Assembly: GCA_910575155.1 (NCBI GenBank) | Contig: CAJTDX010000011.1 | Location: forward strand, 1-64,000 | Direction of reading: 5' to 3' | DNA: 64,000 nt | Origin: Lachnospiraceae bacterium | Lineage (GTDB): Bacteria; Bacillota; Clostridia; Lachnospirales; Lachnospiraceae | Part shown: piece after piece, positions 10,239 to 13,057 of the stretch | Position numbering within the stretch: the first letter of the stretch is position 1 | Layout: each line of letters begins with the position of its first letter | The notes under the pieces: generated by a model | What the model saw: the letters and a program-made list of their open reading frames with translations, nothing else | Database searches by the model: none | Told to the model about the DNA's origin: nothing | Made by a program: the position numbers and the translations under genes

Positions 10239-10267
10239 TTGAATTATTAAAAAATATGTGCTACGAT
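10239..10267 (+). promoter_or_regulatory. Promoter of the hydE-hydG leader
   Basis: TTGAAT at 10239-10244, 17 nt, TACGAT at 10262-10267, with TG one base before the -10 (extended -10). Expected start of transcription near 10274. Confidence 0.65.
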
Positions 10268-10273
10268 AATTCG

Positions 10274-10464
10274 GAACAGGTGAGCGGGAAGAAGCTCTGA
10301 CGGTGAACCTGATGTATTATAAACAAACAGACCAGACCACAAGGATCTCCTGAAGGGAACGGTGCAGCATATAAATGAGAGAAACGATATCTGATCCATG
10401 GAACCGGGATTGTTTTGCCGGATCTGTGTTAGCTGGCCCTGTACCGAACGGTACGGGGTTTTTT
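10274..10464 (+). ncRNA. Structured leader RNA of hydE-hydG, riboswitch candidate
   Basis: The stretch between promoter and terminator can form several nested helices. CAGGT and ACCTG enclose a GAGC...GCTC hairpin near 10276-10315. TGATCC and GGATCT enclose a CCGG-containing arm near 10392-10425. The next element is an intrinsic terminator more than 100 nt before hydE. This is the layout of a transcription-attenuating riboswitch. The sequence does not match the SAM-I, TPP, cobalamin, ZTP, c-di-GMP or fluoride motifs as I know them, so the class is unassigned. Confidence 0.45.
10437..10464 (+). terminator. Intrinsic terminator inside the hydE leader
   Basis: CCCTGTACCG (10437-10446) pairs with CGGTACGGGG (10449-10458) and TTTTTT follows. 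It lies 112 nt upstream of the hydE start codon, so hydE-hydG transcription must read through it. Confidence 0.85.
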
Positions 10465-10575
10465 ATACATTCGGGCGTTCAAAAAAACTATGTCGGCAGG
10501 CTGACGGACGCCAGGTGCAGACAGGAGAAGATGAATCTTCTCTGCGCGATTTTTTACTAAAACCAGGGAGGATTT

Positions 10576-11646
10576 ATGTATCAGACCATACAATTAATCG
10601 ACAAGCTGGAACACACATCCAGACTTACCAAAGAAGAATGGATTGCCCTGATTGAAGACAGAAATGATAAGACAGCGCAGTATCTCTTTGAACGGGCAAG
10701 GTACTGGCAGCATAAATATTTTGCAAAGCGCATTTATACCAGAGGACTGATTGAATTTACCAATTATTGTAAAAACGATTGCTATTACTGCGGAATCCGA
10801 AGAAGCAACAGACAGGCGTCAAGATATCGTCTTACCAGAGAACAGATTCTGGAATGCTGCAGCAGCGGTTACGGGCTGGGATTTCGGACTTTTGTGCTCC
10901 AGGGGGGCGAAGACGGCTGGTTTACCCAGGAGAAGCTTTTGGAACTTGTGCGGGCAATCAGGAAAGAGTATCCGGACTGTGCGCTGACCCTTTCTCTGGG
11001 AGAACGCTCCAAAGAGAGCTATGCGGAATTGTTCCATGCGGGAGCGGACCGCTATCTGCTGCGCCATGAGACGGCGGATGACCAGCATTACCGAAGCCTT
11101 CATCCGCCGGAACTGTCGGCAGAACGCCGCAGGCAGTGCCTGTGGCATTTAAAGGAAATCGGTTATCAGACAGGTACGGGCTTTATGGTGGGGAGTCCTG
11201 GTCAGACGCCGGAACACCTGGCGGAAGATATGCTGTTTATCCGGGAATTAGAGCCTCACATGGTGGGGATCGGTCCCTTTGTACCGCATCACGAAACCCC
11301 GTTTTTCCAGGAAACAGGGGGGACTGTGGAATTGACCCTGTATATGATTGGGCTGCTGAGGGTTATGCTGCCCGCACTTTTGCTTCCGGCGACAACTGCG
11401 CTGGGCACCATTGACCCGCTGGGCAGGGAAAAAGGCATCCAGGCGGGGGCAAACGTGGTTATGCCCAATCTTTCCCCAACTTCTGTGCGCAAGAAATATG
11501 AATTATACGACAATAAAATCTGTACCGGAGATGAAGCGGCGGAGTGCAGAAATTGCCTGAATCAGAGAATGAAAAATATTGGATACGAACTGGTTATTGA
11601 CCGCGGCGATTATCGCAGTCAGATAAAGGAGGAAAATCATGTATAA
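10576..11646 (+). CDS. hydE: [FeFe]-hydrogenase maturase HydE, radical SAM
   Basis: A 356-residue radical-SAM enzyme of H-cluster assembly, acting in the cytosol with HydG and HydF to build the dithiolate-bridged diiron site. The CKNDCYYC motif (residues 65-72) binds the 4Fe-4S cluster for SAM cleavage. FVLQGGEDG, then FMVGSPGQT and GPFVPHHETPF are typical of the HydE TIM barrel. A good AGGGAGG precedes the ATG. The gene overlaps hydG by 8 nt, so the two are translationally coupled. Neither hydF nor a hydrogenase subunit is in the window. Confidence 0.92.
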   Translation: MYQTIQLIDKLEHTSRLTKEEWIALIEDRNDKTAQYLFERARYWQHKYFAKRIYTRGLIEFTNYCKNDCYYCGIRRSNRQASRYRLTREQILECCSSGYGLGFRTFVLQGGEDGWFTQEKLLELVRAIRKEYPDCALTLSLGERSKESYAELFHAGADRYLLRHETADDQHYRSLHPPELSAERRRQCLWHLKEIGYQTGTGFMVGSPGQTPEHLAEDMLFIRELEPHMVGIGPFVPHHETPFFQETGGTVELTLYMIGLLRVMLPALLLPATTALGTIDPLGREKGIQAGANVVMPNLSPTSVRKKYELYDNKICTGDEAAECRNCLNQRMKNIGYELVIDRGDYRSQIKEENHV

Positions 11647-13057
11647 CGTAATGTCACCCAAAGCAGAGGAGTTTATCAGTCATGAGGAAGTTTTGGCTTC
11701 GCTGGCGTACGCGCAGGAACATAAGAACGACCGGGAGCTGATTGATGAAATCCTGGCAAAAGCGAGGGAGCGCAAAGGACTGTCCCACCGCGAGGCGGCC
11801 GTGCTTCTGGATTGCGAACTGGAGGATAAAAATCAGGAAATATATGCGCTCGCAGAACAGATTAAAAAAGATTTCTACGGAAACCGTATCGTCATGTTTG
11901 CGCCCCTGTATTTATCCAACTATTGTATCAACGGCTGCGAATATTGTCCGTATCATCTGAAAAACAAACATATTGCCAGAAAAAAACTGACGCAGGAGGA
12001 AATTGTCAAAGAGGTTACAGCGTTACAGGATATGGGGCACAAGCGTCTGGCTTTGGAGGCAGGGGAAGACCCGATAAACAATCCCATTGAATATATTCTG
12101 GAATGTATTAAGACCATTTACGGCATCAAACATAAGAATGGAGCGATTCGCCGTGTGAATGTAAACATTGCGGCGACTACCATAGAAAATTACAGGAAGT
12201 TAAAAGAAGCGGGAATCGGTACTTATATTCTGTTTCAGGAAACTTATCATAAAGAATCTTATGAAAAACTGCATCCCACAGGCCCCAAACATGATTATGC
12301 CTACCACACAGAAGCTATGGACCGCGCTATGGACGGCGGTATAGATGATGTGGGTCTGGGCGTGTTGTTTGGATTGAATAATTACCAGTACGACTTTACC
12401 GGAATACTCATGCACGCAGAGCATTTAGAGGCTTACAAGGGAGTGGGTCCCCATACCATCAGCGTGCCCCGTCTGCGCCGGGCGGACGATATCGATCCGG
12501 ACGTATTTGACAACGGTATTTCGGATGAGATTTTTGCTAAAATTGTGGCGTGTATTCGGATTGCAGTGCCTTATACGGGCATGATCGTATCGACCAGAGA
12601 GAGCCAGGCATGTCGGGAAAAAGTGCTTCATCTGGGAATTTCACAGATCAGCGGCGCATCTAAAACCAGCGTGGGCGGGTACGCGCAGCCGGAACCAGAA
12701 GAAGAAAATTCAGCACAGTTTGACGTCAGCGATAACCGTACCCTGGATGAAGTGGTAAAATGGCTGATGGAGATGGACTATGTGCCGAGCTTTTGTACGG
12801 CATGTTACCGGGAAGGCAGAACCGGAGACCGTTTCATGACATTGTTAAAGAGCGGACAGATTGTAAACTGCTGTCATCCCAATGCCCTGATGACTTTGAA
12901 GGAATATCTGGAAGATTATGCATCAGAGCAAACCAGAACCGTGGGCGACAAGCTGATTGAAAAAGAGCTTAATGTCATTACCAACCCTAAGGTAAAAGAG
13001 AAAGTGATCGATTATCTTGCCAATATTCACAAGGGAGAACGTGACTTCCGTTTCTGA
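11639..13057 (+). CDS. hydG: [FeFe]-hydrogenase maturase HydG, tyrosine lyase
   Basis: A 472-residue radical-SAM enzyme that cleaves tyrosine to p-cresol, CO and cyanide for the H-cluster. The N-terminal SAM cluster motif is CINGCEYC (residues 96-103). The C-terminal auxiliary cluster region reads FCTACYREGRTGDRFM then IVNCCHPNALMT, which separates HydG from the related ThiH. Length is normal for HydG. Translated from an ATG inside the end of hydE, with AAGGAGG just upstream, and followed by a terminator. Confidence 0.93.
   Translation: MYNVMSPKAEEFISHEEVLASLAYAQEHKNDRELIDEILAKARERKGLSHREAAVLLDCELEDKNQEIYALAEQIKKDFYGNRIVMFAPLYLSNYCINGCEYCPYHLKNKHIARKKLTQEEIVKEVTALQDMGHKRLALEAGEDPINNPIEYILECIKTIYGIKHKNGAIRRVNVNIAATTIENYRKLKEAGIGTYILFQETYHKESYEKLHPTGPKHDYAYHTEAMDRAMDGGIDDVGLGVLFGLNNYQYDFTGILMHAEHLEAYKGVGPHTISVPRLRRADDIDPDVFDNGISDEIFAKIVACIRIAVPYTGMIVSTRESQACREKVLHLGISQISGASKTSVGGYAQPEPEEENSAQFDVSDNRTLDEVVKWLMEMDYVPSFCTACYREGRTGDRFMTLLKSGQIVNCCHPNALMTLKEYLEDYASEQTRTVGDKLIEKELNVITNPKVKEKVIDYLANIHKGERDFRF

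Follow-up and report, generated by a model that had tools for sequence, protein, structure and literature searches.

In the window (the whole stretch of 64,000 nucleotides of Lachnospiraceae DNA that was analysed), hydE and hydG are preceded by a leader RNA that recurs upstream of H-cluster assembly genes in many Clostridia. We consider, with a probability of roughly 0.72, that this leader belongs to a class of structured, cis-acting regulatory RNA absent from Rfam 15 and that it acts as an OFF switch for these genes. The RNA probably turns the hyd genes off when some product of the H-cluster pathway is plentiful, and its ligand would be a product or an intermediate of [2Fe] assembly. The conservation of the RNA, its covariation, its association with hyd genes and the complementarity of two of its strands were observed directly.

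The promoter of the leader (10239-10267, plus strand) consists of a -35-like TTGAAT (10239-10244), a 17-nt spacer and the extended -10 element TGCTACGAT (TG-C-TACGAT, 10259-10267). Since it carries 8 of the 12 consensus bases and the threshold was 9 of 12, it was missing from the list of the consensus scan; a comparable extended -10 element was seen by eye just 5' of arm 1 in several relatives. The leader between the -10 box and the terminator is ca. 170 nt long and contains two conserved hairpins on the plus strand. Arm 1 (10279-10309), delimited from the alignments A1 and A4 and from a scan against shuffled sequences, is composed of P1 (GGT/ACC), P2 (GCGG/CGGT, with one G-G mismatch), a tandem GA internal loop and P3 (AGA/TCT). 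Arm 2 (10331-10363), which is the core of the RNA and was delimited from a covariance model match, pair counts and the minimum free energy (MFE) fold, is composed of an outer stem (ACC/GGT), an internal loop, a CC/GG stem and an apical stem (AGG/CCT). A further hairpin in the spacer that separates arm 2 from the terminator (10397-10428, plus strand) was predicted from the MFE fold, and its sequence was not the same in the relatives shown. The intrinsic terminator reads GCCCTGTACC GAAC GGTACGGGGT followed by a T run (10436-10464, plus strand); its stem (10435-10460) has 11 pairs and a loop of 4 nt, the T run ends at 10464, and the stem shows paired changes in relatives, such as CCCCTGCGCC/GGCGCAGGGG in L013. 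In a 5-kb scan, 7 terminator-like sites were found versus 4.7 expected, so that the terminator pattern by itself is weak evidence; the terminator of the window had the longest stem among the 7. The hydE start lies 112 nt beyond the terminator end and is preceded by the putative ribosome-binding site AGGGAGG (10565-10571, plus strand), as judged by reading the sequence. Both radical SAM maturase genes, hydE (10576-11646; TIGR03956, 5e-179) and hydG (11639-13057; TIGR03955, 1e-281), are on the plus strand, exceed their curated cut-offs and overlap at the hydE end. Besides, a second hairpin (GAGAAGA/TCTTCTC) was seen between the terminator and hydE at 10523-10557, with a T run ca. 10 nt after it.

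The MFE of the leader was -57.8 kcal/mol versus -49.1 ± 4.5 kcal/mol for 200 dinucleotide shuffles (z = -1.95), and 7 of the 200 shuffles equalled it. The stability of the fold is thus only modestly above that of shuffles, and it is conservation that lifts the leader above chance. The preliminary description of this DNA had claimed an extended -10 promoter, nested helices and a strong intrinsic terminator 112 nt before hydE. The promoter and the terminator were both confirmed by the reading given above, and the helices were upheld in that, despite the modest z-score, the leader DNA was matched (E ≤ 2.1e-4) in 21 of the 29 same-genus genomes, counting that of the window. These 29 genomes were among the 61 covered by the DNA search with the leader. 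HydE was found downstream of the leader in 19 of the 21; the other two (L010 and L012) lacked it because the contig ends before HydE could be reached.

As a second route to the leader, the best 80 of 573 hydE loci by protein similarity were taken, which lie partly on the same contigs as the genus matches. Two conserved blocks were seen when the regions upstream of hydE were compared among relatives. A model built from A1, an alignment of twenty leaders (R1), matched the 80 loci 42 times at E ≤ 1, and 38 of these matches were on the coding strand and upstream of hydE. A model of arm 2 was built from 37 sequences, including that of the window (R2; match in the window at 10324-10371, 39.2 bits). 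The preliminary description implied that other hydE genes should also be preceded by conserved structure, and arm 2, with its covarying pairs, was indeed found by R2 at E ≤ 0.01 in 62 of the 80 loci, always on the coding strand. No further R2 match at this threshold was present on either strand of the 658 kb of those loci. The distance from arm 2 to the HydE match was 125 to 574 nt in 61 loci and 2,664 nt in L108, in which a transporter lies between them. By name, 29 of the 62 positive loci were outside the training set, and 26 were left after removal of L033, L045 and L090, which are copies of training sequences. No R2 match at E ≤ 0.01 was obtained in 18 of the 80 loci. Among these, L042 matched R1 well and L052 weakly, and L036 and L083 offered only 313 and 429 nt of upstream sequence, respectively; 13 of the remaining 14 (L086 to L107 and others) were rescanned and showed no convincing match.

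RNAalifold proposed four helices for the twenty leaders of A1. Against shuffle controls, which can be exceeded by related sequences, the covariation score of both arms in A1 was 0.198 versus 0.120 (0 of 500 shuffles as high), and that of arm 2 in an alignment of 90 rows fitted to the R2 structure (A3) was 0.361 versus 0.164 ± 0.009, with slid registers reaching at most 0.138. Changes on both sides of a pair numbered 16 versus 4.5 in the shuffles of A1 and 182 versus 77 in those of A3. Two other counts were not outstanding, namely the further pair types in A1 (13 versus 11.0; 50 of 500 shuffles as high) and the pairs with a both-side change in A3 (11 versus 9.9; 54 of 500 shuffles as high). In A3, 75.1% of the cells pair and one C-G pair is invariant. 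In arm 1, the pairs of P1 (GGT/ACC, GCT/AGC and GAT/ATC) and of P2 (GCAG/CTGC, GTCA/TGAC, GCCG/CGGC and others) change jointly across leaders. When 148 leaders were scanned for arm 1 with a scoring rule of our own design, made after the genus sequences had been seen, 32 reached a score of at least 9.5 versus 0.6 expected in shuffles, and arm 1 was unrecognised in most of the 148. The pair counts of A4 are biased upward, since most of its 30 sequences were picked by this pairing-based scan. Arm 1 as an obligatory part of the RNA is unsupported; in L087 and L088, a TATAAT box precedes arm 2 so closely that arm 1 would not fit. An apparent internal insertion repeating part of arm 1 was seen on the minus strand in the arm 1 region of L017.

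The RNA is outside every Rfam 15 family tested. There were no matches at curated cut-offs in the whole window, and at E ≤ 10 the leader gave only three, all far below cut-off and at chance level. In the loci of 21 relatives, no Rfam 15 match lay over arms 1 and 2, and a weak rli42 match in L216 touched the terminator and the final 2 nt covered by R2. The best weak match in the leader, the trpB ncRNA motif (RF04312), likewise spans the terminator, but at 20 bits versus a cut-off of 59, with an E-value of 2.5 and several non-pairs in the stem, it is attributed to chance. The preliminary description knew of no riboswitch class that fits the leader and had proposed an Rfam search in which a known class might emerge; with no confident match at the motif, that assessment stands, and a known riboswitch class is ruled out to this extent. 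Beyond the Rfam scans, T-box, SAM, THF, glycine and other riboswitches are not known to resemble the RNA.

Several known systems share features with the leader. Like the molybdenum cofactor (Moco) riboswitch, it is a leader RNA above genes that build a labile metal cofactor, but the Moco riboswitch controls other genes, and its model was absent both among the leader matches listed at E ≤ 10 and at the motif of the relatives. The cobalamin riboswitch resembles it in that one RNA stands over biosynthesis genes and an importer. Unlike the cobalamin riboswitch, whose covariance model was also not among the leader matches listed at E ≤ 10, the RNA has a core of two short hairpins and no Rfam match, and the genes behind it are hydE, hydG, TM1266 and aspA. 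Protein-dependent antiterminator hairpins of the RAT/ANTAR kind compete with a terminator, as is proposed for this RNA, but are known with another consensus and gene context; Rfam supplied the models for this comparison. Among the open-access PMC papers listed in searches for the RNA, none describes it as judged by title and abstract. As the preliminary description had put it, the element is riboswitch-like in kind: the leader RNA is conserved and its helices covary, as in riboswitches. Judged from sequence, it would work like a riboswitch and is a candidate member of that class, with small-molecule binding predicted.

At the class level, R2 found 71 sites in 68 of 391 genomes, and the context of 70 of them was examined (G704 left out). 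The nearest hyd gene was TM1266 in 48, hydG in 10 and hydE in 2 (60 of 70); of the others, 2 were in front of aspA, 1 was in front of an ABC transporter (G052) and 7 were inside unrelated reading frames. The last 7 (L159, L226, L228, L235, L240, L242 and L244) lie within long reading frames and were judged false. The nearest gene started 0 to 268 nt downstream in 59 of the 62 hyd or aspA cases and 429 to 708 nt downstream in three. At 63 of the 70 class sites, the genes behind the RNA are consistently linked in function, as expected of a riboswitch regulon. In G642 the RNA occurs before TM1266-hydE-hydG and again before aspA, and in G073 before TM1266-hydE and again before hydG. The two aspA genes exceed the NF008909 cut-off and not the stricter TIGR00839 one. 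A published study ties AspA to the hyd operon and states that the enzyme can provide the nitrogen of the dithiomethylamine bridge (PMC11736057). Since the same RNA stands before hydE, hydG, TM1266 and aspA across Clostridia, the link to [FeFe]-hydrogenase maturation that was first proposed for the leader is strong.

At the family level, R1 found 53 sites; among the 16 new sites examined together with those of the window and G021, hyd genes were behind the RNA in L113-L119, L122, L124 and L141 and were not in L120, L121, L123, L125, L126 and L142. At the order level, R2 found 52 sites, with matches in 46 of 246 genomes, and the 34 sites examined comprised 18 with hyd genes (the window included), 2 with ABC transporters, 13 with neither and 1 cut. 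The 13 (L149, L159, L163, L164, L166, L167, L169, L171, L172, L175, L177, L178 and L295) were judged false, and all except L149 and L169 lie within frames of at least 100 codons. L169 scored 25.3 bits with R2. The strongest match against the hyd-regulon reading is L149 (1501-1556; 34.6 bits with R2), which is A-rich, intergenic and ahead of an unrelated gene, and which is either a chance match or a member outside the hyd regulon. At the phylum level, 16 of 299 genomes had R2 matches and 15 of the 16 sites were examined (G1034 left out); the 13 new loci comprised 8 with hyd genes, 1 cut and 4 (L257, L258, L259 and L261) that lie inside frames and were judged false. L170 and L256, which are cut by contig ends, were left unclassified. 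L160 is also cut, and hyd genes are present there.

The two complementary strands suggest how the RNA may act. GGTGCAG (10361-10367, plus strand), a candidate antiterminator strand formed by the 3' strand of arm 2 and the bases just beyond, is complementary to CTGTACC (10439-10445) in the 5' arm of the terminator, and the duplex has a predicted energy of -13.6 kcal/mol. With a lenient terminator finder, used without a shuffled control, 129 of the 148 leaders had a terminator no more than 260 nt from arm 2; at least one hairpin that the finder picked lies within a gene (L151). In these 129 leaders, the 3' strand of arm 2 paired with the 5' arm of its own terminator at a mean of -12.0 kcal/mol versus -10.2 kcal/mol with the terminators of other leaders (P = 9e-7, ignoring the relatedness of leaders), while the 5' half of arm 2 reached only -6.7 kcal/mol with the terminator (P = 3e-17, again ignoring relatedness). 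The pairing with the own terminator had a median rank of 0.26 among the mismatched ones and beat the mismatched mean in 94 of the 129. In 10 of the 148 leaders, all before hydG, the ribosome site is in the 3' strand of arm 2 and the start codon is at most 6 nt after arm 2. Since folding of arm 2 locks a strand that is complementary to the terminator or carries the ribosome site, folded arm 2 predicts the OFF state.

Based on these observations, the following mechanism may be envisaged. Transcription would start a few nt past the -10 box, with arm 1 made first and then arm 2. If both arms fold, presumably stabilised by a small molecule of H-cluster assembly, the 3' strand of arm 2 would be locked, the terminator would form freely and hydE-hydG would be left untranscribed. 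When the ligand is scarce, GGTGCAG would pair with CTGTACC, no terminator would form and the operon would be read. In other species, in which the 3' strand of arm 2 is the hydG Shine-Dalgarno sequence, the same OFF logic would work at the level of translation. In the predicted ensemble of the window, the pairing probability of the antiterminator was only 0.15, at 10446, where pairing of arm 1 competes, and the terminator was favoured (ca. 1.0) in the full leader; given these values, control would have to be kinetic or to involve factors outside the model.

The opposite direction, in which ligand binding favours readthrough, appears improbable. Such an ON switch would agree with the predicted fold of the window, in which arm 1 competes for pairing with the terminator at 10446, and direction is unmeasurable from sequence, but both forms of the strand locked in arm 2 predict OFF when folded. 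That the leader is an ordinary leader-peptide attenuator or a conserved terminator not coupled to a specific sensor is very improbable: an ATG frame (10398-10655) does overlap the terminator ahead of the gene, but arms 1 and 2 carry compensatory changes, no conserved leader peptide was seen by eye in the leaders shown, and the form with the ribosome site in arm 2 is free of a terminator.

The RNA might be the binding site of a protein, such as TM1266 or an autorepressing maturase, and contain no small-molecule aptamer, which we regard as rather unlikely. TM1266 (TIGR03959), a putative hydrogenase regulator, was the closest gene downstream of the RNA in 48 of the 62 class cases, and its gene was present in 28 of the 29 genus genomes. 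However, in the 20 genus genomes in which both could be located, the RNA was at hydE and TM1266 was either hundreds of kb from it or on a different contig, and R2 matched the window's genome only once at E ≤ 0.05, at hydE, with no match ahead of TM1266. This distance shows only that cis-linkage is needless, and TM1266 as a binding partner is still compatible with it. In the window's genome, TM1266 is at 23293-23532 of contig C17, far from hydE; elsewhere it is the first gene of the hyd operon. A general signal (Fe2+, SAM or redox state) would fit HydE and HydG, which are SAM- and iron-dependent enzymes, yet appears quite improbable as the signal sensed: what follows the real-looking members at the examined sites is an H-cluster gene, aspA or a transporter of one kind, and no SAM or metal riboswitch was matched in the Rfam scans. 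Since no SAM, tyrosine or iron-uptake gene was noticed by eye behind the RNA among the genes shown, SAM, tyrosine and iron appear less likely than a pathway-specific compound.

The transporters offer a hint as to the ligand of the proposed OFF switch. In Sedimentibacter acidaminivorans DSM 24004 (L108, 1459-6282), the RNA (24.5 bits) heads an apparent operon of a permease, an ATPase, a substrate-binding protein, hydE and hydF. The transporter is of the SsuABC/TauABC type (SsuA family, 1e-47, just below cut-off), HydF exceeds its cut-off and no hydG is within the 9-kb locus. In G052 (L173, 5087-7569), a transporter of this type stands behind the RNA (37.5 bits), and the two substrate-binding proteins are 44% identical. 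HydA and TM1266-hydE-hydF are present in G052 (L276 and L296) and no HydG was detected; its best HydG-like protein, encoded in a thi-type cluster, passes the ThiH cut-off but not that of HydG and is a ThiH. R2 found no RNA at its own TM1266-hydE-hydF cluster. In G241, a genome of 99% completeness (L174, 4992-7696), the RNA (27.6 bits) extends into the region where the gene of a more distantly related substrate-binding protein starts, and this gene is followed by a permease-ATPase fusion and TM1266. The HydA of G241 exceeds the TIGR02512 cut-off and has all three H-cluster motifs; neither HydE nor HydG was found in G241 at E ≤ 1e-5, and no protein passed the HydF cut-off. In G622, HydA, two HydE and HydF are present, no HydG was detected, and a substrate-binding protein 33% identical to that of G241 is encoded directly behind hydA (L298, 1905-2975); the RNA match at this transporter is weak (14.5 bits with R2). 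The transporter occurs together with the full set of three maturases in G577, G621 and G668, where R2 found no RNA at the transporter; in G577 (L274), the same type of transporter directly follows hydE, with hydF and aspA nearby. The search for the substrate-binding protein itself was positive in 6 of 196 class genomes. G707 was set aside as a maturase-less case, its transporter being at a contig edge and its maturase genes possibly in a gap.

The RNA precedes sulfonate-type transporters, also in genomes with a hydrogenase in which HydG, or HydE, HydF and HydG alike, went undetected; this hints at an importable H-cluster precursor as the ligand. These cases, few in number and in genomes that may be incomplete, suggest that a compound normally provided by HydG is taken up by the transporter and sensed by the RNA. 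In a published survey, typical HydG was confined to three of eight acetogenic Clostridium species, and atypical homologues are offered as one answer (PMC9431212). As a tentative proposal, which we hold to be rather doubtful, the compound sensed would be a diffusible precursor of the H-cluster, such as a diiron precursor or the iron-carbonyl-cyanide that HydG produces, and some anaerobes would import it instead of making it. If true, the RNA would be a sensor for an organometallic intermediate and its place before transporters a sign of H-cluster scavenging.

Gut and other anaerobic communities make and use hydrogen through [FeFe]-hydrogenases. How the assembly of their H-cluster is regulated is little known. 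An RNA ahead of hydE, hydG and aspA provides a direct handle on this control. Its ligand can be searched for by probing with intermediates of the pathway, and the RNA could serve to report an unstable metallo-intermediate in living cells. The link with transporters, moreover, makes the uptake of parts of the H-cluster from outside the cell testable.
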